Assembly: GCA_026874595.1 (NCBI GenBank)
Contig: CM049322.1
Location: 59,958,886-60,022,885 of the forward strand
Direction: 5' to 3'
Source of the DNA: Sipunculus nudus
Taxonomy: Eukaryota > Annelida > Sipuncula > Golfingiida > Sipunculidae
DNA: 64,000 bases
The position numbers were made by a program, and so were the translations under genes. Shown piece by piece: positions 34,347 to 64,000 of this stretch; positions within the stretch are counted from its first letter, which is position 1, and each line of letters begins with the position of its first letter. The notes below the pieces were generated by a model. The model made no database searches, was not told the origin of the DNA, and worked only from the letters and a program-made list of their open reading frames with translations.

Positions 34347-34430
34347 CCCCATTGTTAGCCCGATTTAATCGGGCTCATTATTATTAGGCCCTGCCATATA
34401 TTGAGTCCGATAGCCATACAGTGAGAGTTT
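34347..34430 (+). repeat. Hairpin-headed repeat, right copy
   Basis: Begins 'ccccattgttagcccg'. A perfect inverted repeat with one central base, agcccgatt-t-aatcgggct, occupies 34357-34375. 'gagtccga' at 34403 and 'gtgagagtt' at 34421 match the left copy in order. Confidence 0.5.
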
Positions 34431-36550: not shown

Positions 36551-36912
36551 CAAGCCTCTCCAACAATTAATTTTAAATGATTTTCATATGATTAAATGAT
36601 TTTGAATTAAGCTAACATATTCCGAAATTTAGCAATTGCATAAAAACTGGATAAAGTTTAGGAAATGTTCAAAAACGCCTTACCTTATTTAACTTTATCA
36701 CCTGTTGGTGAGTGCGTCATACCTTAAGGACAAATGTTAGGAAATGTTCAAAGACGCCATACCTTATTTAACCTTATCACCTGTACAAGCCTTTCCAAAA
36801 ATTCATTTTAAATGATTTTCATATGATTTAATGATTTTGATTCAAGCTTACATATTCCGAAATTTAGCATATCTTATTTAATTTTATCACCTGTTTGTGA
36901 GTGTGTCATACC
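36551..36912. repeat. Local 235-bp duplication with an internal smaller duplication
   Basis: 'caagcctctccaacaatta' at 36551 and 'caagcctttccaaaaattca' at 36786 head two copies offset by 235 bases. Inside, 'aggaaatgttcaaaaacgcc' (36660) and 'aggaaatgttcaaagacgcc' (about 36738) form a second, ~78-base duplication with 'ttatttaac(t/c)ttatcacctg'. Confidence 0.75.
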
Positions 36913-37626
36913 AGCCCGACCCCCCCGTCCCCACCCCGAGATGGCAGCACATGGTTTATAAACCAAAGGGACGTAATAGTTTTATACATTTAATTCATAC
37001 ATTTTAACACTGTTGAGTAATTTTAATGTTTGAATTTACTAGTGGTTGACCTTATCCACTTTTTATCTTTTACTACTAAATGATGTATTGCTTGAGTCGT
37101 GTTCGTCCCATTTTCAATTTTTTTTTCTCCAAAAATAAGCTTTTGTGGCGCCACCTACGCTGATTTACTCTCTGCGAGCTGAAATGATATTTCCGTATAT
37201 AAGAAAATAACTTCGCTTTAGCATTCAGATTATGGTAAACTTTTTTAAGAGAAAGAGGAATTTAATAAATATGATTTTTTTTAAATGACTTTGACAATTT
37301 TATGTTATAACGTATAAGATGTAATGTCTATAACAAAATATCTTTGGAGTGGCTGTATAAGCACGATATGTACAAGAATATATTGAGCCGCAGGTAAAGT
37401 CACCGATTTTGGGTCACTTTCTTCGATATGCCATATTTTCTACAAAATTGTTCATAGTTAAGTGAAATATGTTTATCACACAATCTTTCATATCACATAT
37501 CACAACGAAAGTAAAGTTAATCGAGTATTAAATCAATCAAATTATTTTTAAACCATTTGGACATACATACGTATCGGTTGATCGCAAAATTTTTAAAATT
37601 TGATATTTTTGTATACATGATGTTAT
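36913..37626. other. Non-coding stretch before the satellite
   Basis: AT-rich, no coding signal. A C-rich run at 36917-36945 is present. Confidence 0.45.
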
Positions 37627-37878
37627 GTTTGCTATAAATATCTCAAGAATGACCATAGCTATAAACACTAAATTTCACCAGTAGTACACAAGCAAAACGC
37701 AGTACAAAATGAAATGAAAATAGTACACCATGCAGCAAAACAGTACGACATGGTTTGCTACAAATATCTCAAGAATGACCACAGCTTTCAGCACTTAATT
37801 TCACCAGTAGTACACCAGCAAAACGCAGTACAACATGGAACGAAAGTAGTACACCATGCAGCAAAACAGTACGACATG
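37627..37878. repeat. 126-bp direct duplication at the satellite edge
   Basis: Two copies, 37627-37752 and 37753-37878, each start 'gtttgctanaaatatctcaa' (unique sequence) and end 'catgcagcaaaacagtacga' plus catg (satellite sequence). The unit is half unique flank and half satellite-like, so the junction between unique DNA and array has itself been duplicated. Confidence 0.9.
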
Positions 37879-39534
37879 AAACGACAAGTAGTACACCAGC
37901 AAAGGGCAGAACGACATGAAACGACAAGTAGTACACCTGCAAAATGCAGTACGACATGAAACGACCAGTAGTACACCGGCAAAATGCAGGACGACATGAA
38001 ACGACCAGTGTAGTACACCGCGAAAATGCAGTACGACATGAAACGACAAGTAATACACCGGCAAAATGCAGTACAACATAAAACGACAAGTAGAACACCA
38101 TCAAAATGCAGTACAACATGAAACGACAAGTAGAACACCAGCAAAATGCAGTACGACATGAAACGACAAGTAATACACCGGCAAAATGCAGTACAACATA
38201 AAAAGACAAGTAGAACACCAGCAAAATGCAGTACAACATGAAACGACAAGTAGAACACCAGCAAAAAGCAGTACGACATGAAACGACAAGTAATACACCG
38301 GCAAAATGCAGTACAACATAAAACGACAAGTAAAACACCAGCAAAAAGCAGTACAACATAAAACGACAAGTAGAACACCAGCAAAACGCAGTACGACATG
38401 AAACGACAAGTAATACACCGGCAAAATGCAGTACAACATAAAACGACAAGTAGAACACCAGCAAAATGCAGTACAACATGAAACGACAAGTAGAACACCA
38501 GCAAAATGCAGTACGACATGAAACGACAAGTAATACACCGGCAAAATGCAGTACAACATAAAACGACAAGTAGAACACCAGCAAAATGCAGTACAACATG
38601 AAACGACAAGTAGAACACCAGCAAAATGCAGTACGACATGAAACGACAAGTAATACACCGGCAAAATGCAGTACAACATAAAACGACAAGTAGAACACCA
38701 GCAAAATGCAGTACAACATAAAACGACAAGTAGAACACCAGCAAAATGCAGTACGACATGAAACGACAAGTAATACACCGGCAAAATGCAGTACAACATA
38801 AAACGACAAGTAGAACACCAGCAAAATGCAGTACAACATGAAACGACAAGTAGAACATCAGCAAAATGCAGTACGACATGAAACGACAAGCAATACACCG
38901 GCAAAATGCAGTACGACATGAAACGACAAGTAATACACCGGCAAAATGCAGTACAACATAAAACGACAAGTAGAACACCAGCAAAATGCAGTACAACATG
39001 AAACGACAAGTAGAACACCAGCAAAATGCAGTACGACATGAAACGACAAGTAATACACCGGCAAAATGCAGTACAACATAAAACGACAAGTAGAACACCA
39101 GCAAAATGCAGTACAACATAAAACGACAAGTAGAACACCAGCAAAATGCAGTACGACATGAAACGACAAGTAATACACCGGCAAAATGCAGTACGACCAT
39201 GAAACGACAAGTAGAACGCCAGCAAAATGCAGTACAACATGAAACGACAAGTAAAACACCAGCAAAATGCAGTACGACATGAAACGACAAGTAAAACACC
39301 ACCAAATGCAGTACAACATGAAACGACAAGTAGAACACCAGCAAAATGCAGTACAACATGAAACGACAAGTAGTACACCAGCAAAATGCAGTACAACATG
39401 GAACGAAAGTAGTACACCATGCAGCAAAACAGTACGACATGAAACGACAAGTAGTACACCAGCAAAATGCAGTACGACATGAAACGACCAGTAGTACACC
39501 GGCAAAATGTAGGACGGCATGAAACGACCAGTAT

Positions 39535-42500
39535 ACTACACCGGCAAAATGCAGTACGACATGAAACAACAAGTAATACACTGGAAAAATGCAGTACAAC
39601 ATAAACGACAAGTAATACACCGGCAAAATGCAGTACAGCATAAAATGACAAATAGAACACTAGAAAAATGCAGTACAACATGAAACGACAAGTAGAACAA
39701 CAGCAAAATGCAGTACGACATGAAACGACAAGTAGAACACCAGCAAAATGCAGTACAACATGAAACGACAAGTAGAGCACCAGCAAAATGCAGTACGACA
39801 TGAAAGGACAAGTAGAACACCAGCAGAATGCAGGACGACATGAAACGACAAGTAGAACAGCAGCAAAATGCAGTACAACATAAAACGACAAGTAGAACAC
39901 CAGCAAAATGCAGTACGACATGAAACGACAAGTTGAACACCAGCAAAATGCAGGACGACATGAAACGACAAGTAGAACACCAGCAAAATGCAGTACGACA
40001 TGAAACGACAAGTAAAACACCACCAAATGCAGTACAACATGAAACGACAAGTAGAACACCAGCAAAATGCAGTACAACATGAAACGACAAGTAGTACACC
40101 AGCAAAATGCAGTACAACATGGAACGAAAGTAGTACATCATGCAGCAAAACAGTACGACATGAAACGACAAGTAGTACACCAGCAAAATGCAGTACGACA
40201 TGAAACGACCAGTAGTACACCGGCAAAATGTAGGACGGCATGAAACGACCAGTATACTACACCGGCAAAATGCAGTACGACATGAAACAACAAGTAATAC
40301 ACTGGAAAAATGCAGTACAACATAAACGACAAGTAATACACCGGCAAAATGCAGTACAGCATAAAATGACAAATAGAACACTAGAAAAATGCAGTACAAC
40401 ATGAAACGACAAGTAGAACAACAGCAAAATGCAGTACGACATGAAACGACAAGTAGAACACCAGCAAAATGCAGTACAACATGAAACGACAAGTAGAGCA
40501 CCAGCAAAATGCAGTACGACATGAAAGGACAAGTAGAACACCAGCAGAATGCAGGACGACATGAAACGACAAGTAGAACAGCAGCAAAATGCAGTACAAC
40601 ATAAAACGACAAGTAGAACACCAGCAAAATGCAGTACGACATGAAACGACAAGTTGAACACCAGCAAAATGCAGGACGACATGAAACGACAAGTAGAACA
40701 CCAGCAAAATGCAGTACGACATGAAACGACAAGTAAAACACCAGCAAAATGCAGTACAACATGAAACGACAAGTAGTACACCAGCAAAATGCAGTACGAC
40801 ATGAAACGACAGAAGTACACCGGCAAAATGCAGTACGACATGAAACGACCAGTAGTACACCGGCAAAATGTAGGACGACATGAAACGACCAGTATAGTAC
40901 ACCGGCAAAATGCAGTACGACATGAAACAACAAGTATTACACCGGCAAAATGCAGTACAACATAAAACGACAAGTAGAACACCAGCAAAATGCAGTACAA
41001 CATGAAACGACAAGTAGAACACCAGCAAAATGCAGTACGACATGAAACGACAAGTAATACACCGGCAAAATGCAGTACAACATAAAACGACAAGTAGAAC
41101 ACCAGCAAAATGCAGTACAACATAAAACGACAAGTAGAACACCAGCAAAATGCAATACGACATGAAACGACAAGTAATACACCGGCAAAATGCAGTACAA
41201 CATAAAACGTCAAGTAGAACACCAGCAAAATGTAGTACAACATGAAACGACAAGTAGAACACCAGCAAAATGCAGTACGACATGAAACGACAAGTAATAC
41301 ACCGGCAAAATGCAGTACAACATAAAACGACAAGTAGAACACCAGCAAAATGCAGTACAACATGAAACGACAAGTAGAACACCAGCAAAATGCAGTACAA
41401 CATGAAACGACAAGTAGTACACCAGCAAAATGCAGTACAACATGGAACGAAAGTAGTACACCATGCAGCAAAACAGTACGACATGAAACGACAAGTAGTA
41501 CACCAGCAAAATGCAGTACGACATGAAACGACCAGTAGTACACCGGCAAAATGTAGGACGGCATGAAACGACCAGTATACTACACCGGCAAAATGCAGTA
41601 CGACATGAAACAACAAGTAATACACTGGAAAAATGCAGTACAACATAAACGACAAGTAATACACCGGCAAAATGCAGTACAGCATAAAATGACAAATAGA
41701 ACACTAGAAAAATGCAGTACAACATGAAACGACAAGTAGAACAACAGCAAAATGCAGTACGACATGAAACGACAAGTAGAACACCAGCAAAATGCAGTAC
41801 AACATGAAACGACAAGTAGAGCACCAGCAAAATGCAGTACGACATGAAAGGACAAGTAGAACACCAGCAGAATGCAGGACGACATGAAACGACAAGTAGA
41901 ACAGCAGCAAAATGCAGTACAACATAAAACGACAAGTAGAACACCAGCAAAATGCAGTACGACATGAAACGACAAGTTGAACACCAGCAAAATGCAGGAC
42001 GACATGAAACGACAAGTAGAACACCAGCAAAATGCAGTACGACATGAAACGACAAGTAAAACACCAGCAAAATGCAGTACAACATGAAACGACAAGTAGT
42101 ACACCAGCAAAATGCAGTACGACATGAAACGACAGAAGTACACCGGCAAAATGCAGTACGACATGAAACGACCAGTAGTACACCGGCAAAATGTAGGACG
42201 ACATGAAACGACCAGTATAGTACACCGGCAAAATGCAGTACGACATGAAACAACAAGTAATACACCGGCAAAATGCAGTACAACATAAAACGACAAGTAG
42301 AACACCAGCAAAATGCAGTACAACATGAAACGACAAGTAGAACACCAGCAAAATGCAGTACGACATGAAACGACAAGTAATACACCGGCAAAATGCAGTA
42401 CAACATAAAACGACAAGTAGAACACCAGCAAAATGCAGTACAACATAAAACGACAAGTAGAACACCAGCAAAATGCAATACGACATGAAACGACCAGTAG

Positions 42501-45500
42501 TACACCGGCAAAATGTAGGACGGCATGAAACGACCAGTATACTACACCGGCAAAATGCAGTACGACATGAAACAACAAGTAATACACTGGAAAAATGCAG
42601 TACAACATAAACGACAAGTAATACACCGGCAAAATGCAGTACAGCATAAAATGACAAATAGAACACTAGAAAAATGCAGTACAACATGAAACGACAAGTA
42701 GAACAACAGCAAAATGCAGTACGACATGAAACGACAAGTAGAACACCAGCAAAATGCAGTACAACATGAAACGACAAGTAGAGCACCAGCAAAATGCAGT
42801 ACGACATGAAACGACAAGTAGAACACCAGCAGAATGCAGGACGACATGAAACGACAAGTAGAACACCAGCAAAATGCAGTACAACATAAAACGACAAGTA
42901 GAACACCAGCAAAATGCAGTACGACATGAAACGACAAGTTGAACACCAGCAAAATGCAGGACGACATGAAACGACAAGTAGAACACCAGCAAAATGCAGT
43001 ACGACATGAAACGACAAGTAAAACACCACCAAATGCAGTACAACATGAAACGACAAGTAGAACACCAGCAAAATGCAGTACAACATGAAACGACAAGTAG
43101 TACACCAGCAAAATGCAGTACAACATGGAACGAAAGTAGTACATCATGCAGCAAAACAGTACGACATGAAACGACAAGTAGTACACCAGCAAAATGCAGT
43201 ACGACATGAAACGACCAGTAGTACACCGGCAAAATGTAGGACGGCATGAAACGACCAGTATACTACACCGGCAAAATGCAGTACGACATGAAACAACAAG
43301 TAATACACTGGAAAAATGCAGTACAACATAAACGACAAGTAATACACCGGCAAAATGCAGTACAGCATAAAATGACAAATAGAACACTAGAAAAATGCAG
43401 TACAACATGAAACGACAAGTAGAACAACAGCAAAATGCAGTACGACATGAAACGACAAGTAGAACACCAGCAAAATGCAGTACAACATGAAACGACAAGT
43501 AGAGCACCAGCAAAATGCAGTACGACATGAAAGGACAAGTAGAACACCAGCAGAATGCAGGACGACATGAAACGACAAGTAGAACAGCAGCAAAATGCAG
43601 TACAACATAAAACGACAAGTAGAACACCAGCAAAATGCAGTACGACATGAAACGACAAGTTGAACACCAGCAAAATGCAGGACGACATGAAACGACAAGT
43701 AGAACACCAGCAAAATGCAGTACGACATGAAACGACAAGTAAAACACCAGCAAAATGCAGTACAACATGAAACGACAAGTAGTACACCAGCAAAATGCAG
43801 TACGACATGAAACGACAGAAGTACACCGGCAAAATGCAGTACGACATGAAACGACCAGTAGTACACCGGCAAAATGTAGGACGACATGAAACGACCAGTA
43901 TAGTACACCGGCAAAATGCAGTACGACATGAAACAACAAGTAATACACCGGCAAAATGCAGTACAACATAAAACGACAAGTAGAACACCAGCAAAATGCA
44001 GTACAACATGAAACGACAAGTAGAACACCAGCAAAATGCAGTACGACATGAAACGACAAGTAATACACCGGCAAAATGCAGTACAACATAAAACGACAAG
44101 TAGAACACCAGCAAAATGCAGTACAACATAAAACGACAAGTAGAACACCAGCAAAATGCAATACGACATGAAACGACAAGTAATACACCGGCAAAATGCA
44201 GTACAACATAAAACGTCAAGTAGAACACCAGCAAAATGTAGTACAACATGAAACGACAAGTAGAACACCAGCAAAATGCAGTACGACATGAAACGACAAG
44301 TAATACACCGGCAAAATGCAGTACGACATAAAACGACAAGTAGAACACCAGCAAAATGCAGTACAACATGAAACGACAAGTAGAACACCAGCAAAATGCA
44401 GTACAACATGAAACGACAAGTAGTACACCAGCAAAATGCAGTACAACATGGAACGAAAGTAGTACACCATGCAGCAAAACAGTACGACATGAAACGACAA
44501 GTAGTACACCAGCAAAATGCAGTACGACATGAAACGACCAGTAGTACACCGGCAAAATGTAGGACGGCATGAAACGACCAGTATACTACACCGGCAAAAT
44601 GCAGTACGACATGAAACAACAAGTAATACACTGGAAAAATGCAGTACAACATAAACGACAAGTAATACACCGGCAAAATGCAGTACAGCATAAAATGACA
44701 AATAGAACACTAGAAAAATGCAGTACAACATGAAACGACAAGTAGAACAACAGCAAAATGCAGTACGACATGAAACGACAAGTAGAACACCAGCAAAATG
44801 CAGTACAACATGAAACGACAAGTAGAGCACCAGCAAAATGCAGTACGACATGAAAGGACAAGTAGAACACCAGCAGAATGCAGGACGACATGAAACGACA
44901 AGTAGAACAGCAGCAAAATGCAGTACAACATAAAACGACAAGTAGAACACCAGCAAAATGCAGTACGACATGAAACGACAAGTTGAACACCAGCAAAATG
45001 CAGGACGACATGAAACGACAAGTAGAACACCAGCAAAATGCAGTACGACATGAAACGACAAGTAAAACACCAGCAAAATGCAGTACAACATGAAACGACA
45101 AGTAGTACACCAGCAAAATGCAGTACGACATGAAACGACAGAAGTACACCGGCAAAATGCAGTACGACATGAAACGACCAGTAGTACACCGGCAAAATGT
45201 AGGACGACATGAAACGACCAGTATAGTACACCGGCAAAATGCAGTACGACATGAAACAACAAGTAATACACCGGCAAAATGCAGTACAACATAAAACGAC
45301 AAGTAGAACACCAGCAAAATGCAGTACAACATGAAACGACAAGTAGAACACCAGCAAAATGCAGTACGACATGAAACGACAAGTAATACACCGGCAAAAT
45401 GCAGTACAACATAAAACGACAAGTAGAACACCAGCAAAATGCAGTACAACATAAAACGACAAGTAGAACACCAGCAAAATGCAATACGACATGAAACGAC

Positions 45501-45546
45501 AAGTAATACACCGGCAAAATGCAGTACAACATAAAACGTCAAGTAG
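39535..45546. repeat. 3,006-bp tandem segmental duplication inside the satellite
   Basis: The segment from about 39.54 to 42.54 kb is repeated at 42.54-45.55 kb with offset 3,006. The same private variants recur, for example 'aaaacgtcaagtag' at about 41207 and 44213, and 'tgcaatacgacatg' at about 41152 and 44158. Each copy contains sub-blocks of about 721, 1,323 and 961 bases. Copies differ at a few positions only, so the event is recent or the copies are being homogenised. Confidence 0.85.
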
Positions 45547-48500
45547 AACACCAGCAAAATGTAGTACAACATGAAACGACAAGTAGAACACCAGCAAAAT
45601 GCAGTACGACATGAAACGACAAGTAATACACCGGCAAAATGCAGTACAACATAAAACGACAAGTAGAACACCAGCAAAATGCAGTACAACATGAAACGAC
45701 AAGTAGAACACCAGCAAAATGCAGTACGACATGAAACGACAAGTAATACACCGGCAAAATGCAGTACAACATAAAACGACAAGTAGAACACCAGCAAAAT
45801 GCAGTACCACATGAAGCGACAAGTAGAACACCAGCAAAATGCAGTACGACATGAAACGACAAGTAATACACCGGCAAAATGCAGTACAACATAAAACGAC
45901 AAGTAGAACGCCAGCAAAATGCAGTACAACATAAAACGACAAGTAGAACACCAGCAAAATGCAGTACGACATGAAACGACCAGTAATACACCGGAAAAAT
46001 GCAGTACAACATAAAACGACAAGTAGAACACCAGCAAAATGCAGTACAACACAAAACGACAAGTAGAACACCAGCAAAATGCAGTACGACATGAAACGAC
46101 AAGTAATACACCGGCAAAATGCAGTAGGACATGAAACGACAAGTAATACACCGGCAAAATGCAGTACAACATAAAACGACAAGTAGAACACCAGCAAAAT
46201 GCAGTACAACATGAAACGACAAGTAAAACACCAGCAAAATGCAGTACGACATGAAACGACAAGTAATACACCGGCAAAATGCAGTACAACATAAAACGAC
46301 AAGTAGAACACCAGCAAAATGCAGTACGACATGAAACGACAAGTAATACACCGGCAAAATGCAGTACGACCATGAAACGACAAGTAGAACACCAGCAAAA
46401 TGCAGTACAACATGAAACGACAAGTAAAACACCACCAAATGCAGTACAACATGAAACGACAAGTAGAACACCAGCAAAATGCAGTACAACATGAATCGAC
46501 AAGTAGAACACCAGCAAAATGCAGTACGACATGAAACGACAAGTAATACACCGGCAAAATGCAGTACAACATAAAACGACAAGTAGAACACCAGCAAAAT
46601 GCAGTACAACATGAAACGACAAGTAGAACACCAGCAAAATGCAGTACGACATGAAACGACAAGTAATACACCGGCAAAATGCAGTACAACATAAAACAAC
46701 AAGTAGAACACCAGCAAAATGCAGTACAACATAAAACGACAAGTAGAACACCAGCAAAATGCAGTACGACATGAAACGACAAGTAATACACCGGCAAAAT
46801 GCAGTACGTCATGAAACGACAAGTAATACACCGGCAAAATGCAGTAAAACATAAAACGACAAGTAGAACACCAGCAAAATGCAGTAAAACATGAAACGAC
46901 AAGTAGAACACCAGCAAAATGCAGTACGACATGAAACGACAAGTAATACACCGGCAAAATGCAGTACAACATAAAACGACAAGTAGAACACCAGCAAAAT
47001 GCAGTACGACATGAAACGAAAAGTTATACACCGGCAAAATGCAGTACGACCATGAAACGACAAGTAGAACACCAGCAAAATGCAGTACAACATGAAACGA
47101 CAAGTAAAACACCACCAAATGCAGTACAACATGAAACGACAAGTAGAACACCAGCAAAATGCAGTACAACATGAAACGACAAGTAGTACACCAGCAAAAT
47201 GCAGTACAACATGGAACGAAAGTAGTACACCATGCAGCAAAACAGTACGAAATGAAACGACAAGTAGTACACCAGCAAAATGCAGTACGGCATGAAACGA
47301 CCAGTAGTACACCGGCAAAATGTAGGACGGCATGAAACGACCAGTATACTACACCGGCAAAATGCAGTACGACATGAACCAACAAGTAATACACCGGCAA
47401 AATGCAGTACGACATGAAACGACAAGTAATACACCGGCAAAATGCAGTACAACATAAAACGACAAGTAGAACACCAGCAAAATGCAGTACAACATGAAAC
47501 GACAAGTAGAACACCAGCAAAACAGTACGACATGAAACGACAAGTAATACACCGGCAAAATGCAGTACAACATAAAACGACAAGTAGAACACCAGCAAAA
47601 TGCAGTACAACATAAAACGACAAGTAGAACACCAGCAAAATGCAGTACGACATGAAATGACAAGTAATACACCGGCAAAATGCAGTACGACCATGAAACG
47701 ACAAGTAGAACACCAGCAAAATGCAGTACGACATGAAACGACAAGTAAAACACCAGCAAATGCAGTACAACATGAAACGACAAGTAGAACACCAGCAAAA
47801 TGCAATACAACATGAAACGACAAGTAGAACACCAGCAAAATGCAGTTCAACATAAAACGACAAGTAGAACACCAGCAAAATGCAGTACGACATGAAACGA
47901 CCAGTAGTACACCGGCAAAATGTAGGACGGCGTGAAACTACCAGTATACTACACCGGCAAAATGCAGTACGACATGAAACAACAAGTAATACACTGGAAA
48001 AATGCAGTACGACATGAAACGACAAGTAATACACCGGCAAAATGCAGTACAGCATAAAATGACAAGTAGAACACCAGCAAAATGCAGTACAACATGAAAC
48101 GACAAGTAGAACACCAGCAAAATGCAGTACGACATGAAACGACAAGTAATACACCGGCAAAATGCAGTACAACATAAAACGACAAGCAGAACACCAGCAA
48201 AATGCAGTACAACATGAAACTACAAGTAGAACACCAGCAAAATGCAGTACAACATGGAAAGAAAGTAGTACACCATGCAGCAAAACAGTACGACATGAAA
48301 CGACAAGTAGTACACCAGCAAAATGCAGTACGACATGAAACGACCAGTAGTACACCGGCAAAATGTAGGACGGCATGAAACGACCAGTATACTACACCGG
48401 CAAAATGCAGTACGACATGAAACAACAAGTAATACACTGGAAAAATGCAGTACGACATGAAACGACAAGTAATACACCGGCAAAATGCAGTACAGCATAA

Positions 48501-50878
48501 AATGACAAGTAGAACACCAGCAAAATGCAGTACAACATGAAACGACAAGTAGAACACCATCAAAATGCAGTACGACATGAAACGACAAGTAGAACACCAG
48601 CAAAATGCAATACAACATGAAACGACAAGTAGAACACCAGCAAAATGCAGTACAACATAAAACGACAAGTAGAACACCAGCAAAATGCAGTACGACATGA
48701 AACGACCAGTAATACACCGGCAAAATGTAGGACGGCATGAAACGACCAGTATACTACACCGGCAAAATGCAGTACGACATGAAACAACAAGTAATACACT
48801 GGAAAAATGCAGTACGACATGAAACGACAAGTAATACACCGGCAAAATGCAGTACAGCATAAAATGACAAGTAGAACACCAGCAAAATGCAGTACAACAT
48901 GAAACGACAAGTAGAACACCAGCAAAATGCAGTACGACATGAAACGACAAGTAATACACCGGCAAAATGCAGTACAACATAAAACGACAAGCAGAACACC
49001 AGCAAAATGCAGTACAACATGAAACTACAAGTAGAACACCAGCAAAATGCAGTACAACATGGAACGAAAGTAGTACACCATGCAGCAAAACAGTACGACA
49101 TGAAACGACAAGTAGTACACCAGCAAAATGCAGTACGACATGAAACGACCAGAAGTACACCGGCAAAATGTAGGACGGCATGAAACGACCAGTATACTAC
49201 ACCGGCAAAATGCAGTACGACATGAAACAACAAGTAATACACTGGAAAAATGCAGTACGACATGAAACGACAAGTAATACACCGGCAAAATGCAGTACAG
49301 CATAAAATGACAAGTAGAACACCAGCAAAATGCAGTACAACATGAAACGACAAGTAGAACACCAGCAAAATGCAGTACGACATGAAACGACAAGTAGAAC
49401 ACCAGCAAAATGCAATACAAAATGAAACGACAAGTAGAACACCAGCAAAATGCAGTACAACATAAAACGACAAGTAGAACACCAGCAAAATGCAGTACGA
49501 CATGAAACGACCAGTAGTACACCGGCAAAATGTAGGACGGCATGAAACGACCAGTATACTACACCGGCAAAATGCAGTACGACATGTAACAACAAGTAAT
49601 ACACTGGAAAAATGCAGTACGACATGAATCGACAAGTAATACACCGGCAAAATGCAGTACAGCATAAAATGACAAGTAGAACACCAGCAAAATGCAGTAC
49701 AACATGAAACGACAAGTAGAACACCAGCAAAATGCAGTACGACATGAAACGACAAGTAATACACCGGCAAAATGCAGTACAACATGAAACGACAAGTAGA
49801 ACACCAGCAAAATGCAGTACAACATAAAACGACAAGTAAAACACCAGCAAAATGCAGTACGACATGAAACGACCAGTAGTACACCGGCAAAATGTAGGAC
49901 GGCATGAAACGACCAGTATACTACACCGGCAAAATGCAGTACGACATGAAACAACAAGTAATACACTGGAAAAATGCAGTACGACATGAAACGACAAGTA
50001 ATACACCGGCAAAATGCAGTACAGCATAAAATGACAAGTAGAACACCAGCAAAATGCAGTACAACATGAAACGACAAGTAGAACACCAGAAAAATGCAGT
50101 ACGACATGAAACGACAAGTAATACACCGGCAAAATGCAGTACAACATAAAACGACAAGCAGAACACCAGCAAAATGCAGTACAACATGAAACTACAAGTA
50201 GAACACCAGCAAAATGCAGTACAACATGGAACGAAAGTAGTACACCATGCAGCAAAACAGTACGACATGAAACGACAAGTAGTACACCAGCAAAATGCAG
50301 TACAGCATAAAATGACAAGTAGAACACCAGCAAAATGCAGTACGACATGAAACGACAAGTAATACACCGGCAAAATGCAGTACAACATAAAACGACAAGC
50401 AGAACACCAGCAAAATGCAGTACAACATGAAACGACAAGTAGAACACCAGCAAAATGCAGTACGACATGAAACGACAAGTAATACACCGGCAAAATGCAG
50501 TACAACATAAAACGACAAGTAGAACACCAGCAAAATGCAGTACAACATAAAACGACAAGTAGAACACCAGCAAAATGCAGTACGACATGAAACGACAAGT
50601 AATACACCGGCAAAATGCAGTACAACATAAAACGACAAGAAGAACACCAGCAAAATGCAGTACAACATGAAACGACAAGTAGAACACCAGCAAAACAGTA
50701 CGACATGAAACGACAAGTAATACACCGGCAAAATGCAGTACAACATAAAACGACAAGTAGAACACCAGCAAAATGCAGTACAACATAAAACGACAAGTAG
50801 AACACCAGCAAAATGCAGTACGACATGAAACGACCAGTAGTACACCGGCAAAATGTAGGACGGCATGAAACGACCAGT

Positions 50879-53800
50879 ATACTACACCGGCAAAATGCAG
50901 TACGACATGAAACAACAAGTAATACACTGGAAAAATGCAGTACGACATGAAACGACAAGTAATACACCGGCAAAATGCAGTACAGCATAAAATGACAAGT
51001 AGAACACCAGCAAAATGCAGTACAACATGAAACGACAAGTAGAACACCAGCAAAATGCAGTACGACATGAAACGACAAGTAATACACCGGCAAAATGCAG
51101 TACAACATGAAACGACAAGTAGAACACCAGCAAAATGCAGTACAACATAAAACGACAAGTAAAACACCAGCAAAATGCAGTACGACATGAAACGACCAGT
51201 AGTACACCGGCAAAATGTAGGACGGCATGAAACGACCAGTATACTACACCGGCAAAATGCAGTACGACATGAAACAACAAGTAATACACTGGAAAAATGC
51301 AGTACGACATGAAACGACAAGTAATACACCGGCAAAATGCAGTACAGCATAAAATGACAAGTAGAACACCAGCAAAATGCAGTACAACATGAAACGACAA
51401 GTAGAACACCAGAAAAATGCAGTACGACATGAAACGACAAGTAATACACCGGCAAAATGCAGTACAACATAAAACGACAAGCAGAACACCAGCAAAATGC
51501 AGTACAACATGAAACTACAAGTAGAACACCAGCAAAATGCAGTACAACATGGAACGAAAGTAGTACACCATGCAGCAAAACAGTACGACATGAAACGACA
51601 AGTAGTACACCAGCAAAATGCAGTACAGCATAAAATGACAAGTAGAACACCAGCAAAATGCAGTACGACATGAAACGACAAGTAATACACCGGCAAAATG
51701 CAGTACAACATAAAACGACAAGCAGAACACCAGCAAAATGCAGTACAACATGAAACGACAAGTAGAACACCAGCAAAATGCAGTACGACATGAAACGACA
51801 AGTAATACACCGGCAAAATGCAGTACAACATAAAACGACAAGTAGAACACCAGCAAAATGCAGTACAACATAAAACGACAAGTAGAACACCAGCAAAATG
51901 CAGTACGACATGAAACGACAAGTAATACACCGGCAAAATGCAGTACAACATAAAACGACAAGAAGAACACCAGCAAAATACAGTACAACATGAAACGACA
52001 AGTAGAACACCAGCAAAACAGTACGACATGAAACGACAAGTAATACACCGGCAAAATGCAGTACAACATAAAACGACAAGTAGAACACCAGCAAAATGCA
52101 GTACAACATAAAACGACAAGTAGAACACCAGCAAAATGCAGTACGACATGAAATGACAAGTAATACACCGGCAAAATGCAGTACGACCATGAAACGACAA
52201 GTAGAACACCAGCAAAATGCAGTACGACATGAAACGACAAGTAAAACGCCACCAAATGCAGTACAACATGAAACGACAAGTAGAACACCAGCAAAATGCA
52301 GTACAACATGAAACGACAAGTAGTACACCAGCAAAATGCAGTACAACATGGAACGAAAGTAGTACACCATGCAGCAAAACAGTACGACATGAAACGACAA
52401 GTAGTACACCAGCAAAATGCAGTACGACATGAAACGACCAGTAGTACACCGGTAAAATGTAGGACGGCATGAAACGACCAGTTTACTACACCGGCAAAAT
52501 GCAGTACGACATGAAACGACAAGTAGAACACCAGCTAAATGCAGTACGACATGAAACGACAAGTAGAACACCAGCAAAATGCAGTACAACATGAAACGAC
52601 AAGTAGAACACCAGCAAAATGCAGTACAACATAAAACGACAAGTAGAACACCAGCAAAATGCAGTACGACATGAAACGACCAGTAGTACACCGGCAAAAT
52701 GTAGGACGGCATGAAACGACCAGTATACTACACCGGCAAAATGCAGTACGACATGAAACAACAAGTAATACACTGGAAAAATGCAGTACGACATGAAACG
52801 ACAAGTAATACACCGGCAAAATGCAGTACAGCATAAAATGACAAGTAGAACACCAGCAAAATGCAGTACAACATGAAACGACAAGTAGAACACCAGCAAA
52901 ATGCAGTACGACATGAAACGACAAGTAATACACCGGCAAAATGCAGTACAACATGAAACGACAAGTAGAACACCAGCAAAATGCAGTACAACATAAAACG
53001 ACAAGTAAAACACCAGCAAAATGCAGTACGACATGAAACGACCAGTAGTACACCGGCAAAATGTAGGACGGCATGAAACGACCAGTATACTACACCGGCA
53101 AAATGCAGTACGACATGAAACAACAAGTAATACACTGGAAAAATGCAGTACGACATGAAACGACAAGTAATACACCGGCAAAATGCAGTACAGCATAAAA
53201 TGACAAGTAGAACACCAGCAAAATGCAGTACAACATGAAACGACAAGTAGAACACCAGAAAAATGCAGTACGACATGAAACGACAAGTAATACACCGGCA
53301 AAATGCAGTACAACATAAAACGACAAGCAGAACACCAGCAAAATGCAGTACAACATGAAACTACAAGTAGAACACCAGCAAAATGCAGTACAACATGGAA
53401 CGAAAGTAGTACACCATGCAGCAAAACAGTACGACATGAAACGACAAGTAGTACACCAGCAAAATGCAGTACAGCATAAAATGACAAGTAGAACACCAGC
53501 AAAATGCAGTACGACATGAAACGACAAGTAATACACCGGCAAAATGCAGTACAACATAAAACGACAAGCAGAACACCAGCAAAATGCAGTACAACATGAA
53601 ACGACAAGTAGAACACCAGCAAAATGCAGTACGACATGAAACGACAAGTAATACACCGGCAAAATGCAGTACAACATAAAACGACAAGTAGAACACCAGC
53701 AAAATGCAGTACAACATAAAACGACAAGTAGAACACCAGCAAAATGCAGTACGACATGAAACGACAAGTAATACACCGGCAAAATGCAGTACAACATAAA

Positions 53801-54570
53801 ACGACAAGAAGAACACCAGCAAAATGCAGTACAACATGAAACGACAAGTAGAACACCAGCAAAACAGTACGACATGAAACGACAAGTAATACACCGGCAA
53901 AATGCAGTACAACATAAAACGACAAGTAGAACACCAGCAAAATGCAGTACAACATAAAACGACAAGTAGAACACCAGCAAAATGCAGTACGACATGAAAT
54001 GACAAGTAATACACCGGCAAAATGCAGTACGACCATGAAACGACAAGTAGAACACCAGCAAAATGCAGTACGACATGAAACGACAAGTAAAACGCCACCA
54101 AATGCAGTACAACATGAAACGACAAGTAGAACACCAGCAAAATGCAGTACAACATGAAACGACAAGTAGTACACCAGCAAAATGCAGTACAACATGGAAC
54201 GAAAGTAGTACACCATGCAGCAAAACAGTACGACATGAAACGACAAGTAGTACACCAGCAAAATGCAGTACGACATGAAACGACCAGTAGTACACCGGTA
54301 AAATGTAGGACGGCATGAAACGACCAGTTTACTACACCGGCAAAATGCAGTACGACATGAAACGACAAGTAGAACACCAGCTAAATGCAGTACGACATGA
54401 AACGACAAGTAGAACACCAGCAAAATGCAGTACAACATGAAACGACAGGTAGAACACCAGCAAAATGCAGTACAACATAAAACGACAAGTAGAACACCAG
54501 CAAAATGCAGTACAACATGAAACGACAAGTAGTACACCAGCAAAATGCAGTTCGACATGAAACGACAAGT
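50879..54570. repeat. 1,846-bp tandem segmental duplication inside the satellite
   Basis: Marker units at 51569 and 52368 recur at 53415 and 54214, offset 1,846 in both cases. Variants such as 'acaagaagaacacc' (51959 and 53805) and the short unit 'cagcaaaacagtacgacatg' (about 52013 and 53859) are shared. Very few differences were seen. Confidence 0.85.
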
Positions 54571-56296
54571 AGAACACCAGCAAAATGCAGTACAACATGA
54601 AACGACAAGTAGAACACCAGCAAAATGCAGTACAACATGAAACGACAAATAGAACACCAGCAAAATGCAGTACGACATGAAACGACAAGTAGAACACCAG
54701 CAAAATGCAGGACGACATGAAACGACAAGTAGAACACCAGCAAAATGCAGTACGACATGAAACGACAAGTAAAACACCAGCAAAATGCAGTACAACATGA
54801 AACGACAAGTAGTACACCAGCAAAATGCAGTACGACATGAAACGACAGTAGTACACCGGCAAAATGCAGTACGACATGAAACGACCAGAAGTACACCGGC
54901 AAAATGTAGGACGACATGAAACGACCAGTATAGTACACCGGCAAAGTGCAGTACGACATGAAACAACAAGTAATACACTGGAAAAATGCAGTACGACATG
55001 AAACGACAAGTAATACACCAGCAAAATGCTGTACAGCATAAAACGACAAGTAGAACACCAGCAAAATGCAGTACAGCATGAAACGACAAGTAGAACACCA
55101 GCAAAATGCAGTACAACATGAAACGACAAGTAGTACACCAGCAAAATGCAGTACAACATGGAACGAAAGTAGTACACCATGCAGCAAAACAGTACGACAT
55201 GAAACGACAAGTAGTACACCAGCAAAATGCAGTACGACATGAAACGACAAGTAATACACCGGCAAAATGCAGTACAACATAAAACGACCAGTATAGAACA
55301 CCAGCAAAATGCAGTACGACATGAAACGACAAGTAGAACACCAGCAAAATGCAGTACGACATGAAACGACAAGTAGAACACCGGCAAAATGCAGTACAAC
55401 ATAAAACGACAAGTAGAACACCAGCAAAATGCAGTACAACATGAAACGACAAGTAGAACACCAGGAAAATGCAGGACGACATGAAACGACAAGTAGAACA
55501 CCAGCAAAATGCAGTACGACATGAAACGACAAGTAGTACACCGGCAAAATGCAGTACGACATGAAACGACCAGTAGTACACCGGCAAAATGCAGTACGAC
55601 ATGAAACGACAAGTAGTACACCAGCAAAATGCAGTACGACATGAAACGACCAGTAGTACACCGGCAAAATGCAGTACGACATGAAACGACCAGTAGTACA
55701 CCGGCAAAATGCAGTACGACATGAAACGACAAGTAATACACCGGCAAAATGCAGTACAACATAAAACGACAAGTAGAACACCAGCAAAATGCAGTACAAC
55801 ATGAAACGACAAGTAGAACACCAGCAAAACAGTACGACATGAAACGACAAGTAATACACCGGCAAAATGCAGTACAACATAAAACGACAAGTAGAACACC
55901 AGCAAAATGCAGTACAACATAAAACGACAAGTAGAACACAAGCAAAATGCAGTACGACATGAAATGACAAGTAATACACCGGCAAAATGCAGTACGACCA
56001 TGAAACGACAAGTAGAACACCAGCAAAATGCAGTACGACATGAAACGACAAGTAAAACGCCACCAAATGCAGTACAACATGAAACGACAAGTAGAACACT
56101 AGCAAAATGCAGTACAACATGAAACGACAAGTAGTACACCAGCAAAATGCAGTACAACATGGAACGAAAGTAGTACACCATGCAGCAAAACAGTACGACA
56201 TGAAACGACAAGTAGTACACCAGCAAAATGCAGTACGACATGAAACGACCAGTAGTACACCGGCAAAATGTAGGACGGCATGAAACGACCAGTATA

Positions 56297-59200
56297 CTAC
56301 ACCGGCAAAATGCAGTACGACATGAAACGACAAGTAGAACACCAGCTAAATGCAGTACGACATGAAACGACAAGTAGAACACCAGCAAAATGCAGTACAA
56401 CATGAAACGACAGGTAGAACACCAGCAAAATGCAGTACAACATAAAACGACAAGTAGAACACCAGCAAAATGCAGTACAACATGAAACGACAAGTAGTAC
56501 ACCAGCAAAATGCAGTACGACATGAAACGACAAGTAGAACACCAGCAAAATGCAGTACAACATGAAACGACAAGTAGAACACCAGCAAAATGCAGTACAA
56601 CATAAAACGACAAGTAGAACACCAGCAAAATGCAGTACGACATGAAACGACAAGTAGAACACCAGCAAAATGCAGGACGACATGAAACGACAAGTAGAAC
56701 ACCAGCAAAATGCAGTACGACATGAAACGACAAGTAAAACACCAGCAAAATGCAGTACAACATGAAACGACAAGTAGTACACCAGCAAAATGCAGTACGA
56801 CATGAAACGACAGTAGTACACCGGCAAAATGCAGTACGACATGAAACGACCAGTAGTACACCGGCAAAATGCAGTACGACATGAAACGACAAGTAATACA
56901 CCGGCAAAATGCAGTACAACATAAAACGACAAGTAGAACACCAGCAAAATGCAGTACAACATGAAACGACAAGTAGTACACCAGCAAAATGCAGTACGAC
57001 ATGAAACGACAAGTAATACACCGGCAAAATGCAGTACAACATAAAACGACAAGTAGAACACCAGCAAAATGCAGTACAACATGAAACGACAAGTAGAACA
57101 CCAGCAAAATGCAGTACGACATGAAACGACAAGTAATACACCGGCAAAATGCAGTACAACATAAAACGACAAGTAGAACACCAGCAAAATGCAGTACAAC
57201 ATAAAACGACAAGTAGAACACCAGCAAAATGCAGTACGACATGAAACGACAAGTAATACACCGGCAAAATGCAGTACAACATAAAACGACAAGTAGAACA
57301 CCAGCAAAATGCAGTACAACATGAAACGACAAGTAGAACATCAGCAAAATGCAGTACGACATGAAACGACAAGCAATACACCGGCAAAATGCAGTACGAC
57401 ATGAAACGACAAGTAATACACCGGCAAAGTGCAGTACAACATAAAACGACAAGTAGAACACCAGCAAAATGCAGTACAACATGAAACGACAAGTAGAACA
57501 CCAGCAAAATGCAGTACGACATGAAACGACAAGTAATACACCGGCAAAATGCAGTACAACATAATACGACAAGTAGAACACCAGCAAAATGCAGTACAAC
57601 ATAAAACGACAAGTATAACACCAGCAAAATGCAGTACGATATGAAACGACAAGTAATACACCGGCAAAATGCAGTACGACCATGAAACGACAAGTAGAAC
57701 GCCAGCAAAATGCAGTACAACATGAAACGACAAGTAAAACACCAGCAAAATGCAGTACGACATGAAACGACAAGTAAAACACCACCAAATGCAGTACAAC
57801 ATGAAACGACAAGTAGAACACCAGCAAAATGCAGTACAACATGAAACGACAAGTAGAACACCAGCAAAATGCAGTACGACATGAAACGACAAGTAAAACG
57901 CCACCAAATGCAGTACAACATGAAACGACAAGTAGAACACTAGCAAAATGCAGTACAACATGAAACGACAAGTAGTACACCAGCAAAATGCAGTACAACA
58001 TGGAACGAAAGTAGTACACCATGCAGCAAAACAGTACGACATGAAACGACAAGTAGTACACCAGCAAAATGCAGTACGACATGAAACGACCAGTAGTACA
58101 CCGGCAAAATGTAGGACGGCATGAAACGACCAGTATACTACACCGGCAAAATGCAGTACGACATGAAACGACAAGTAGAACACCAGCTAAATGCAGTACG
58201 ACATGAAACGACAAGTAGAACACCAGCAAAATGCAGTACAACATGAAACGACAGGTAGAACACCAGCAAAATGCAGTACAACATAAAACGACAAGTAGAA
58301 CACCAGCAAAATGCAGTACAACATGAAACGACAAGTAGTACACCAGCAAAATGCAGTACGACATGAAACGACAAGTAGAACACCAGCAAAATGCAGTACA
58401 ACATGAAACGACAAGTAGAACACCAGCAAAATGCAGTACAACATAAAACGACAAGTAGAACACCAGCAAAATGCAGTACGACATGAAACGACAAGTAGAA
58501 CACCAGCAAAATGCAGGACGACATGAAACGACAAGTAGAACACCAGCAAAATGCAGTACGACATGAAACGACAAGTAAAACACCAGCAAAATGCAGTACA
58601 ACATGAAACGACAAGTAGTACACCAGCAAAATGCAGTACGACATGAAACGACAGTAGTACACCGGCAAAATGCAGTACGACATGAAACGACCAGTAGTAC
58701 ACCGGCAAAATGCAGTACGACATGAAACGACAAGTAATACACCGGCAAAATGCAGTACAACATAAAACGACAAGTAGAACACCAGCAAAATGCAGTACAA
58801 CATGAAACGACAAGTAGTACACCAGCAAAATGCAGTACGACATGAAACGACAAGTAATACACCGGCAAAATGCAGTACAACATAAAACGACAAGTAGAAC
58901 ACCAGCAAAATGCAGTACAACATGAAACGACAAGTAGAACACCAGCAAAATGCAGTACGACATGAAACGACAAGTAATACACCGGCAAAATGCAGTACAA
59001 CATAAAACGACAAGTAGAACACCAGCAAAATGCAGTACAACATAAAACGACAAGTAGAACACCAGCAAAATGCAGTACGACATGAAACGACAAGTAATAC
59101 ACCGGCAAAATGCAGTACAACATAAAACGACAAGTAGAACACCAGCAAAATGCAGTACAACATGAAACGACAAGTAGAACATCAGCAAAATGCAGTACGA

Positions 59201-59978
59201 CATGAAACGACAAGCAATACACCGGCAAAATGCAGTACGACATGAAACGACAAGTAATACACCGGCAAAGTGCAGTACAACATAAAACGACAAGTAGAAC
59301 ACCAGCAAAATGCAGTACAACATGAAACGACAAGTAGAACACCAGCAAAATGCAGTACGACATGAAACGACAAGTAATACACCGGCAAAATGCAGTACAA
59401 CATAATACGACAAGTAGAACACCAGCAAAATGCAGTACAACATAAAACGACAAGTATAACACCAGCAAAATGCAGTACGATATGAAACGACAAGTAATAC
59501 ACCGGCAAAATGCAGTACGACCATGAAACGACAAGTAGAACGCCAGCAAAATGCAGTACAACATGAAACGACAAGTAAAACACCAGCAAAATGCAGTACG
59601 ACATGAAACGACAAGTAAAACACCACCAAATGCAGTACAACATGAAACGACAAGTAGAACACCAGCAAAATGCAGTACAACATGAAACGACAAGTAGAAC
59701 GCCAGAAAAATGCAGTACAACATGAAACGACAAGTAAAACACCGGCAAAATGCAGTACGACATGAAACGACAAGTAAAACACCACCAAATGCAGTACAAC
59801 ATGAAACGACAAGTAGAACACCAGCAAAATGCAGTACAACATGAAACAACAAGTAGTACACCAGCAAAATGCAGTACAACATGGAACGAAAGTTGTACAC
59901 CATGCAGCAAAACAGTACGACATGAAACGACAAGTAGTACACCAGCAAAATGCAGTACGACATGAAACGACCAGTAGT
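56297..59978. repeat. 1,841-bp tandem segmental duplication inside the satellite
   Basis: Marker units at 56179 and 58020 are 1,841 bases apart and the following sequence matches. Shared private variants include 'accagctaaatgcag' (56344 and 58185) and 'gacaggtagaacac' (56408 and 58249). Confidence 0.85.
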
Positions 59979-62900
59979 ACACCGGCAAAATGTAGGACGG
60001 CATGAAACGACCAGTATACTACACCGGCAAAATGCAGTACGACATGAAACAACAAGTAATACACTGGAAAAATGCAGTACAACATAAACGACAAGTAATA
60101 CACCGGCAAAATGCAGTACAGCATAAAATGACAAAAAGAACACTAGAAAAATGCAGTACAACATGAAACGACAAGTAGAACAACAGCAAAATGCAGTACG
60201 ACATGAAACGACAAGTAGAACACCAGCAAAATGCAGTACAACATGAAACGACAAGTAGAGCACCAGCAAAATGCAGTACGACATGAAAGGACAAGTAGAA
60301 CACCAGCAGAATGCAGGACGACATGAAACGACAAGTAGAACACCAGCAAAATGCAGTACAACATAAAACGACAAGTAGAACACCAGCAAAATGCAGTACG
60401 ACATGAAACGACAAGTTGAACACCAGCAAAATGCAGGACGACATGAAACGACAAGTAGAACACCAGCAAAATGCAGTACGACATGAAACGACAAGTAAAA
60501 CACCACCAAATGCAGTACAATATGAAACGACAACTAGAACACCAGCAAAATGCAGTACAACATGAAACGACAAGTAGTACACCAGCAAAATGCAGTACAA
60601 CATGGAACGAAAGTAGTACACCATGCAGCAAAACAGTACGACATGAAACGACAAGTAGTACACCAGCAAAATGCAGTACGACATGAAACGACCAGTAGTA
60701 CACCGGCAAAATGTAGGACGGCATGAAACGACCAGTATACTACACCGGCAAAATGCAGTACGACATGAAACAACAAGTAATACACTGGAAAAATGCAGTA
60801 CAACATAAACGACAAGTAATACACCGGCAAAATGCAGTACAGCATAAAATGACAAATAGAACACTAGAAAAATGCAGTACAACATGAAACGACAAGTAGA
60901 ACAACAGCAAAATGCAGTACGACATGAAACGACAAGTAGAACACCAGCAAAATGCAGTACAACATGAAACGACAAGTAGAGCACCAGCAAAATGCAGTAC
61001 GACATGAAAGGACAAGTAGAACACCAGCAGAATGCAGGACGACATGAAACGACAAGTAGAACACCAGCAAAATGCAGTACAACATAAAACGACAAGTAGA
61101 ACACCAGCAAAATGCAGTACGACATGAAACGACAAGTTGAACACCAGCAAAATGCAGGACGACATGAAACGACAAGTAGAACACCAGCAAAATGCAGTAC
61201 GACATGAAACGACAAGTAAAACACCAGCAAAATGCAGTACAACATGAAACGACAAGTAGTACACCAGCAAAATGCAGTACGACATGAAACGACAGAAGTA
61301 CACCGGCAACATGCAGTACGACATGAAACGACCAGTAGTACACCGGCAAAATGTAGGACGACATGAAACGACCAGTATAGTACACCGGCAAAATGCAGTA
61401 CGACATGAAACAACAAGTAATACACCGGCAAAATGCAGTACAACATAAAACGACAAGTGGAACACCAGCAAAATGCAGTACAACATGAAACGACAAGTAG
61501 AACAACAGCAAAATGCAGTACGACATGAAACGACAAGTAATACACCGGCAAAATGCAGTACAACATAAAACGACAAGTAGAACACCAGCAAAATGCAGTA
61601 CAACATAAAACGACAAGTAGAACACCAGCAAAATGCAATACGACATGAAACGACAAGTAATACACCGGCAAAATGCAGTACAACATAAAACGTCAAGTAG
61701 AACACCAGCAAAATGTAGTACAACATGAAACGACAAGTAGAACACCAGCAAAATGCAGTACGACATGAAACGACAAGTAATACACCGGCAAAATGCAGTA
61801 CAACATAAAACGACAAGTAGAACACCAGCAAAATGCAGTACAACATGAAACGACAAGTAGAACACCAGCAAAATGCAGTACGACATGAAACGACAAGTAA
61901 TACACCGGCAAAATGCAGTACAACATAAAACGACAAGTAGAACACCAGCAAAATGCAGTACCACATGAAGCGACAAGTAGAACACCAGCAAAATGCAGTA
62001 CGACATGAAACGACAAGTAATACACCGGCAAAATGCAGTACAACATAAAACGACAAGTAGAACACCAGCAAAATGCAGTACAACATAAAACGACAAGTAG
62101 AACACCAGCAAAATGCAGTACGACATGAAACGACCAGTAATACACCGGAAAAATGCAGTACAACATAAAACGACAAGTAGAACACCAGCAAAATGCAGTA
62201 CAACACAAAACGACAAGTAGAACACCAGCAAAATGCAGTACGACATGAAACGACAAGTAATACACCGGCAAAATGCAGTAGGACATGAAACGACAAGTAA
62301 TACACCGGCAAAATGCAGTACAACATAAAACGACAAGTAGAACACCAGCAAAATGCAGTACAACATGAAACGACAAGTAAAACACCAGCAAAATGCAGTA
62401 CGACATGAAACGACAAGTAATACACCGGCAAAATGCAGTACAACATAAAACGACAAGTAGAACACCAGCAAAATGCAGTACGACATGAAACGACAAGTAA
62501 TACACCAGCAAAATGCAGTACGACATGAAACGACAAGTAATACACCGGCAAAATGCAGTACAACATAAAACGACAAGTAGAACACCAGCAAAATGCAGTA
62601 CAACATGAAACGACAAGTAGTACACCAGCAAAATGCAGTACGACATGAAACGACAAGTAATACACCGGCAAAATGCAGTACAACATAAAACGACAAGTAG
62701 AACACCAGCAAAATGCAGTACAACATGAAACGACAAGTAGAACACCAGCAAAATGCAGTACGACATGAAACGACAAGTAATACACCGGCAAAATGCAGTA
62801 CAACATAAAACGACAAGTAGAACACCAGCAAAATGCAGTACAACATAAAACGACAAGTAGAACACCAGCAAAATGCAGTACGACATGAAACGACAAGTAA

Positions 62901-64000
62901 TACACCGGCAAAATGCAGTACAACATAAAACGACAAGTAGAACACCAGCAAAATGCAGTACAACATGAAACGACAAGTAGAACATCAGCAAAATGCAGTA
63001 CGACATGAAACGACAAGCAATACACCGGCAAAATGCAGTACGACATGAAACGACAAGTAATACACCGGCAAAGTGCAGTACAACATAAAACGACAAGTAG
63101 AACACCAGCAAAATGCAGTACAACATGAAACGACAAGTAGAACACCAGCAAAATGCAGTACGACATGAAACGACAAGTAATACACCGGCAAAATGCAGTA
63201 CAACATAATACGACAAGTAGAACACCAGCAAAATGCAGTACAACATAAAACGACAAGTATAACACCAGCAAAATGCAGTACGATATGAAACGACAAGTAA
63301 TACACCGGCAAAATGCAGTACGACCATGAAACGACAAGTAGAACGCCAGCAAAATGCAGTACAACATGAAACGACAAGTAAAACACCAGCAAAATGCAGT
63401 ACGACATGAAACGACAAGTAAAACACCACCAAATGCAGTACAACATGAAACGACAAGTAGAACACCAGCAAAATGCAGTACAACATGAAACGACAAGTAG
63501 AACGCCAGAAAAATGCAGTACAACATGAAACGACAAGTAAAACACCGGCAAAATGCAGTACGACATGAAACGACAAGTAAAACACCACCAAATGCAGTAC
63601 AACATGAAACGACAAGTAGAACACCAGCAAAATGCAGTACAACATGAAACAACAAGTAGTACACCAGCAAAATGCAGTACAACATGGAACGAAAGTTGTA
63701 CACCATGCAGCAAAACAGTACGACATGAAACGACAAGTAGTACACCAGCAAAATGCAGTACGACATGAAACGACCAGTAGTACACCGGCAAAATGTAGGA
63801 CGGCATGAAACGACCAGTATACTACACCGGCAAAATGCAGTACGACATGAAACAACAAGTAATACACTGGAAAAATGCAGTACAACATAAACGACAAGTA
63901 ATACACCGGCAAAATGCAGTACAGCATAAAATGACAAAAAGAACACTAGAAAAATGCAGTACAACATGAAACGACAAGTAGAACAACAGCAAAATGCAGT
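58700..64000. repeat. 3,803-bp offset duplication at the right edge of the window
   Basis: Sequence from about 58.70 to 60.19 kb is found again at about 62.51-64.00 kb with offset 3,803. It includes 'aagttgtacaccatgcagc' (59890 and 63693) and 'gacaaaaagaacactag' (60129 and 63932). The intervening part belongs to a different block type related to 42.5-46.3 kb. Confidence 0.8.

Follow-up and report, generated by a model that had tools for sequence, protein, structure and literature searches.

How does a short tandem unit come to form nested blocks of several sizes, and does such nesting point to a centromere? Both questions are raised by a 64,000-nucleotide stretch of the genome of Sipunculus nudus (GenBank assembly GCA_026874595.1, contig CM049322.1, hereafter C17, positions 59958886–60022885; this whole stretch is called the window), the right-hand part of which is occupied by a satellite with a 40-bp unit. 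A first, sequence-only reading of the window described nested higher-order repeats (HORs) on three or more scales, likened them to centromeric alpha satellite and placed them beside an ordinary gene. The analysis reported here favors a plainer account: the satellite is very probably a large, locus-specific minisatellite (a variable number tandem repeat, VNTR, or satellite) that grew by tandem duplication of blocks of a broad range of sizes and has no detectable coding or centromeric role.

Extent and Copy Number of the 40-bp Array

The assembly contains 1,426,538,692 bases (1.43 Gb) in 153 contigs. C17 measures 61,128,531 bp and the other contigs sampled measure 63.5–110.9 Mb, so these contigs are chromosome-scale. 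Tandem Repeats Finder (TRF) reports the 40-bp array from position 37806 of the window to its last base, with 653.6 copies and 89% matches. The array had earlier been taken to begin at 37879; its actual start is 37806. At its left edge, as read from the sequence, a direct duplication of 126 bp connects the non-satellite flank with the first satellite units.

37627–37878, plus strand: direct duplication at the left edge of the array, two copies (TRF period 126, 2.0 copies, 91%)
37806–64000, plus strand: 40-bp array, the portion inside the window, 654 segments (TRF and unit list)

The array was also expected to run past the window, and it does. The adjoining 120 kb was added to the window to trace the whole array, giving 184 kb in total, over which there is not a single N. 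The complete array spans about 136.8 kb (C17:59,996,691–60,133,522, the right end being approximate) and holds 3,413 complete units, all on one strand, which fall into 224 distinct unit sequences, 89 of them seen once. Exactly 40 bp is the length of 2,705 of the 3,413 units. The units lie head to tail and their size is within the range of roughly 10–100 bp that defines a VNTR or large minisatellite. The composition of the 137 kb is strongly asymmetric between strands (A 47.3%, T 11.5%, AT skew about 0.6).

The Array Occupies One Locus

A 33-nt pattern of the unit, allowing at most three mismatches, was searched genome-wide and gave 2,791 forward and 0 reverse matches, with 0 for the reversed control. 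The same pattern on the joined stretch also gives 2,791 matches, and because this equals the genome total, no unit match lies outside the array; the search, which lists 100 places, covers the assembly outside its stretches of N. Marker 24-mers searched genome-wide fall inside the array in 100 of 100 cases, all on one strand. A 2-kb probe from the array finds six genome matches, five within the array and one weak match (68% identity) at C16:3179292. Thus, the array is the single locus found in the assembly.

Centromeric satellites are usually common to several chromosomes, although chromosome-specific ones are known. The sharing among chromosomes that is usual, though not universal, for centromeric satellite is not seen for the 40-bp array. 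This bears on the first rival explanation, according to which the array is a satellite of the centromere or pericentromere, specific to one chromosome and with HORs like those of alpha satellite. Its 137 kb in one orientation, built of nested, near-identical blocks, would suit such a satellite, but it is found at one locus only, none of the 2,791 unit matches or 100 marker 24-mers lying elsewhere. The remaining evidence on this rival comes from the arrangement of the blocks.

A Mosaic of Block Duplications

A marker unit had been used to delimit the blocks, and the marker itself holds up well. The window contains an 18-mer from it exactly 21 times, and these copies lie where first recorded except for the first two, which are at 37729 and 37855 (not 37728 and 37854); all the spacings reported are correct, including 1,323 bp three times. 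Over the whole array, including the left edge, the 18-mer occurs 110 times. The 109 marker spacings take 47 distinct values, the most frequent being 799 bp (10 times), and the marker unit is directly preceded in 107 of 109 cases by a unit ending in ATGGAACGAA.

At the smallest scale, a 120-bp trimer had been described as the basic grouping of units. It is real but local: phase-exact trimer runs of at least six units hold 21.2% of the 3,413 units, compared with a mean of 0.2% and a maximum of 0.8% in 100 shuffles, these statistics being based on a coarse classification of units. The marker unit and the trimer are exemplified at the following positions of the window.

38049–38888, plus strand: the 120-bp trimer in clear form; its three unit types recur seven times in a constant order, with substitutions scattered among them
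39408–39449, plus strand: example of a marker unit, 42 bp (unit list and marker search)

At larger scales, repeated words of 20 units cover 75% of the array and none is repeated in a shuffle, so nesting is far above chance. There are 190 long repeated segments at lags of 2–1,399 units. Eight of the 190 are adjacent block duplications, in which the run is at least 0.85 of the lag, and these bear out the multi-kilobase duplications noted earlier. Their lags are 1,841, 1,846, 1,886, 3,006, 3,207, 3,803, 4,734, and 10,462 bp, their blocks comprise 46 to 261 units, and within the pairs 96.9–100% of units are identical. Ungapped comparison of six of the eight pairs gives 0 mismatches at the lag of 1,841 bp, 283 at 3,006 bp, 1 at 3,207 bp, 12 at 3,803 bp, 0 at 4,734 bp, and 6 at 10,462 bp. 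The 283 mismatches probably result from an internal insertion or deletion (indel) that shifts the register, since 96.9% of units agree at that lag. Four of these duplications lie wholly or partly in the window.

39891–45461, plus strand: block duplicated in tandem at a lag of 3,006 bp, the copies agreeing in 96.9% of their units
50756–54447, plus strand: block duplicated in tandem at a lag of 1,846 bp, the copies agreeing in 97.8% of their units
56011–59692, plus strand: block duplicated in tandem at a lag of 1,841 bp, the copies identical (0 mismatches)
58733–64000, plus strand: in-window part of a tandem block duplication (extended end 66298), lag 3,803 bp, 12 mismatches per 3,803 bp

Long near-identical blocks are where assemblers tend to fail, and the arrangement could be an artefact in which blocks were mis-joined, duplicated, or collapsed. 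However, the 184-kb stretch contains no N, and of the six block pairs compared, four differ in some bases between their copies. At 5,630 bp, the longest stretch repeated exactly in the array is shorter than common long reads. In addition, a second large array, with a 52-bp unit on contig C3, is of like build. An assembly artefact is therefore quite unlikely.

The scales of nesting are not discrete. Autocorrelation of the unit string reaches a maximum of 0.12, at a lag of 261 units (lags 1–1,500), where 50 shuffles (lags 1–300) do not exceed 0.052. Because autocorrelation stays at or below 0.12 and the 109 marker spacings are spread over 47 values, the array has no dominant period, and its blocks are of many sizes instead of discrete levels. 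The description as nested on three or more scales is thus right as to nesting but suggests discrete levels that the data do not show. Adjacent blocks, 96.9–100% identical by unit, resemble each other more closely than monomers do (89% matches by TRF), as copies of an HOR would. No multimeric unit of fixed period, of the kind that alpha-satellite HORs have, is found in the array. The array is therefore a mosaic built by duplicating blocks of many sizes, and the term higher-order repeat, as used of alpha satellite, does not apply to it.

The absence of a fixed HOR period is the second point that separates the array from the centromeric satellite considered above. No CENP-B box was found in it either, which counts for little, as many centromeres lack the box. 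Conversely, the age structure of the array, younger-looking in its core and older at its edges, and its distance of about 1.0 Mb from one end of C17, a contig of chromosome scale, would fit a centromeric or pericentromeric satellite. In the core, from coordinate 106133 to 160827, unit sequences that occur only once number 0, 0, 2, and 2 in successive bins of 341 units; bins to the left hold 21, 6, 17, 9, and 14 and those to the right 16, followed by 2 in the last three units. Because once-only units are rare in the core and commoner outside, the pattern fits a young core that expanded last. Given the single locus and the lack of a fixed period, a centromeric or pericentromeric identity is very unlikely.

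The nearby end of C17, about 1.0 Mb away, is its right one; the array is present at the end of no other contig. The first and last kilobase of C17 contain no TTAGGG or CCCTAA; the true ends may be missing, and for this reason the label subtelomeric cannot be claimed for the array. Elsewhere, among the first 100 places listed, a TTAGGG run lies on the minus strand at C2:404083–404774 and perhaps beyond, 0.4 Mb inside that contig, and may be an interstitial telomere repeat or a misplaced contig end.

Simulated Growth by Block Duplication

Array growth was simulated with tandem duplications and deletions occurring at random, together with mutation. Starting from a seed of three unit types, 11 settings were run twice each, with events of 1–3 units, of geometric mean 20 or 80 units, distributed as 1/L up to 400 units, or fixed at 33 units. 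In none of these did autocorrelation fall as low as observed, the lowest value being 0.18. With a fixed 33-unit block, the maximum autocorrelation was 0.86–0.98 in four simulated arrays, compared with 0.12 observed. Nested duplication is thus borne out, but the likeness to alpha-satellite HORs is loose.

The best setting used block sizes distributed as 1/L up to 400 units, a seed of 40 variants, and a mutation rate of 0.001 per unit per event. It covered 10 of 12 statistics, a statistic being covered when the observed value lies inside the range of 10 runs. Limiting the blocks to 100, 30, or 3 units with the same 40-variant seed, at one mutation rate each, covered only 4, 2, and 0 of the 12, and these smaller limits were rejected. 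In such a model, a diverse seed and the duplication of blocks of many different sizes would be enough to produce nested layers, with the proviso that the setting was chosen knowing the answer.

On these grounds, growth of the array probably proceeded as follows. A 40-bp unit was amplified in one place, perhaps seeded at the 126-bp duplication of the left edge. Repeated tandem duplication, and presumably loss, of blocks would then have enlarged it, the smallest blocks being of a few units, as in the trimer runs, and the largest of 261 units (10.5 kb). Unequal sister-chromatid exchange or out-of-register repair synthesis would be the likely agents. Duplication of blocks that already contained duplications would give the array its nested look.

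Several results weigh against this account. The best setting misses the signal at lag 3 (0.073 observed, 0.001–0.041 simulated) and the longest exact run (139 units observed, 148–379 simulated). Three other settings with the same 1/L distribution up to 400 units cover 6, 8, and 6 of the 12 statistics, the one covering 8 having 60 seed variants and half of its events of 1–3 units. The fit is also partly chosen, in that the 40-variant seed was adopted after the three-type seed had missed the observed autocorrelation. Among the long repeated segments, the median ratio of run to lag is 0.07 and only 8 of 190 have a run near the lag, so the 182 non-adjacent segments may leave room for copying to a distance (conversion). 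The tandem-only model itself yields 2–11 adjacent exact copies, similar to the 3 observed by that stricter count. No tendency to form hairpins above that of shuffles, which might account for instability, was found in four 120-nt folds (z from −0.41 to 0.89). Finally, a 57-bp array in the same window shows block duplication weakly, its longest repeated run being 13 units where 100 shuffles reach at most 10.

Open Frames and Motifs in the Array

Minus-strand frames of the array run for up to 2,057 codons, and one open reading frame (ORF) of 1,817 amino acids lies on the minus strand within the array, which would suit a coding or otherwise selected repeat, one that specifies a long repetitive minus-strand protein. 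All three minus frames are equally open, however, and the long minus-strand ORFs exist because the unit is nearly stop-free on that strand: over 137 kb, each minus frame has 102–109 stops and each plus frame 2,278–2,305. Units of 40 bp, together with indels, keep shifting the frame, and the unit lengths leave remainders modulo 3 of 1 in 2,705 units, 0 in 568, and 2 in 140, so the frame is not conserved. A coding or otherwise selected repeat is accordingly so improbable that it carries almost no weight.

Motif searches gave no positive result. Neither CTCF-like nor G-quadruplex motifs occur on either strand of the array, and Rfam at its gathering threshold finds no match in the window. We infer an absence of function for the array. 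An origin of the 40-bp unit from an ancestral 20-bp half-unit (TRF periods of 18–22 bp) was considered but is not supported, the alignment of its two halves scoring within the range of shuffled halves (861 of 5,000 reach the score).

Flanks and Neighboring Repeats

The ordinary gene placed beside the array was not confirmed. Of 127 flanking ORFs of at least 55 amino acids, the 50 compared with Pfam (including 41 of the 53 in 24468–37600) gave nothing above the cut-off, a comparison that would miss short exons and families lacking a Pfam model; below the cut-off there were four matches, with E values of 0.05–0.09, in two ORFs. Three short minus-strand ORFs of the window share a YSRGPLSVVR-like stretch and are probably a dispersed repeat.

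923–1102, minus strand: short ORF with the YSRGPLSVVR-like stretch
28354–28623, minus strand: short ORF with the YSRGPLSVVR-like stretch
33500–33775, minus strand: short ORF with the YSRGPLSVVR-like stretch

Could the array instead be an internal tandem repeat of a mobile element that has expanded, as is known in several animal lineages? About 1.2 kb beyond its right edge, at C17:60134751–60135101, lies a dispersed repeat of about 330 bp that is 73–79% identical to at least 39 other places on many contigs (best 40 of 2,860 candidates scored) and that looks like a short mobile element. Nevertheless, its other copies are not accompanied by close copies of the satellite, units with three or fewer mismatches being confined to the array. 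On the left, a search of the genome with the flank gave 490 matches, part of them listed, with 40 of 365 candidates scored; the matches listed fall on the array, on the flank itself, and, in one case (70 bp), just to the left, and thus none of those listed lies outside the array and its immediate left side. An origin within a mobile element is highly improbable.

Tandem repeats of other units make up 41.6% of the 37.8 kb to the left of the array and 21.0% of its right flank (9.4 kb read). Altogether, the 184 kb holds at least nine arrays of differing unit (33, 45, 57, 15, 37, 40, 25/75, 143, and 46 bp), of which five in addition to the 40-bp array are in the window.

4266–5522: array with a 33-bp unit (TRF)
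6091–7931: array with a 45-bp unit (TRF)
9015–19848: array with a 57-bp unit, 190 copies, 97% matches (TRF)
23257–24467: array with a 15-bp unit (TRF)
35727–35907: array with a 37-bp unit (TRF)

In four of the five arrays the period is divisible by 3, and these four have long open frames on both strands. None of the 33-, 45-, 57-, 15-, and 37-bp units, nor the 52-bp unit of contig C3, aligns with the 40-bp unit better than shuffles do (63 to 484 of 500 reach the score). The same is true of five of six TRF rows from the right flank. A relationship between the 143-bp and 40-bp units, for which 9 of 200 shuffles reach the score, was discounted after that many tests.

Because at least nine arrays lie within 184 kb and the left flank is 41.6% tandem repeat, this stretch of the chromosome might act as a tandem-repeat factory in which a local property, such as fork stalling or misregistered repair of frequent breaks, and not the 40-bp sequence drives both the birth of arrays and the duplication of blocks. 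We regard this as an unlikely but not negligible explanation. The samples elsewhere were 4-kb pieces analyzed by TRF at periods of at least 7 bp: 8 from the interior of C17, 10 from its last 2 Mb, and 12 from other contigs. Tandem repeats amount to 3.7% of the pieces from the C17 interior, 7.4% of those from the last 2 Mb (one of the ten being mostly N), and 12.7% of those from the other contigs, or 4.8% without one piece inside the 52-bp array; the comparison with the flanks is biased, as the window was selected for its repeats.

Comparison With Known Arrays

That one piece, of the 30 sampled blindly, lies wholly within the 52-bp array, which extends from C3:19,992,889 to beyond 20,013,998. 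In the 21.1 kb read, it has 408 units of only 57 distinct sequences, repeated unit words at several lags, and an exact tandem duplication of a 61-unit block. It is thus built like the 40-bp array from a dissimilar unit (its score is equalled in 63 of 500 shuffles). As a single case, this chance encounter with a like build at an unrelated locus suggests that such structure is ordinary for large arrays in this genome.

A published counterpart exists in human. Warburton and colleagues (PMC2588610) describe several human VNTR arrays with HOR structure, among them an 18-kb VNTR in the pseudoautosomal region at Xp22.33 with a 61-bp unit and irregular HORs of 1.6 and 2.5 kb. It shares with the 40-bp array its locus specificity, non-centromeric position, minisatellite-size unit, irregular higher-order blocks, and complex arrangement. 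It differs in its unit and in size (18 kb versus 137 kb), and the 40-bp array has more block sizes, up to 10.5 kb. The two are the same kind of thing on different scales. Layering that the sequence-only reading held to be best known from centromeres is therefore also on record, in irregular form, away from them.

Human alpha satellite likewise has monomers grouped head to tail in larger units that are amplified in turn. Its HORs, however, are described as having a distinct periodicity (PMC3218096), whereas in the 40-bp array no lag exceeds 0.12 and a single locus is involved. Likeness to centromeric HORs should accordingly not be pressed, and the array is not evidence of a centromere or of a function.

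What the array offers is a record of its own growth. Real, large, and gap-free in this assembly, it belongs to a known kind, and its 137 kb with 224 unit types can be read as a history of how a tandem array enlarges. The statistics of its unit words favor tandem duplication of blocks that vary widely in size over both slippage involving a few units and amplification of a fixed higher-order unit. As a biological object it looks ordinary; its use lies in models of satellite turnover.

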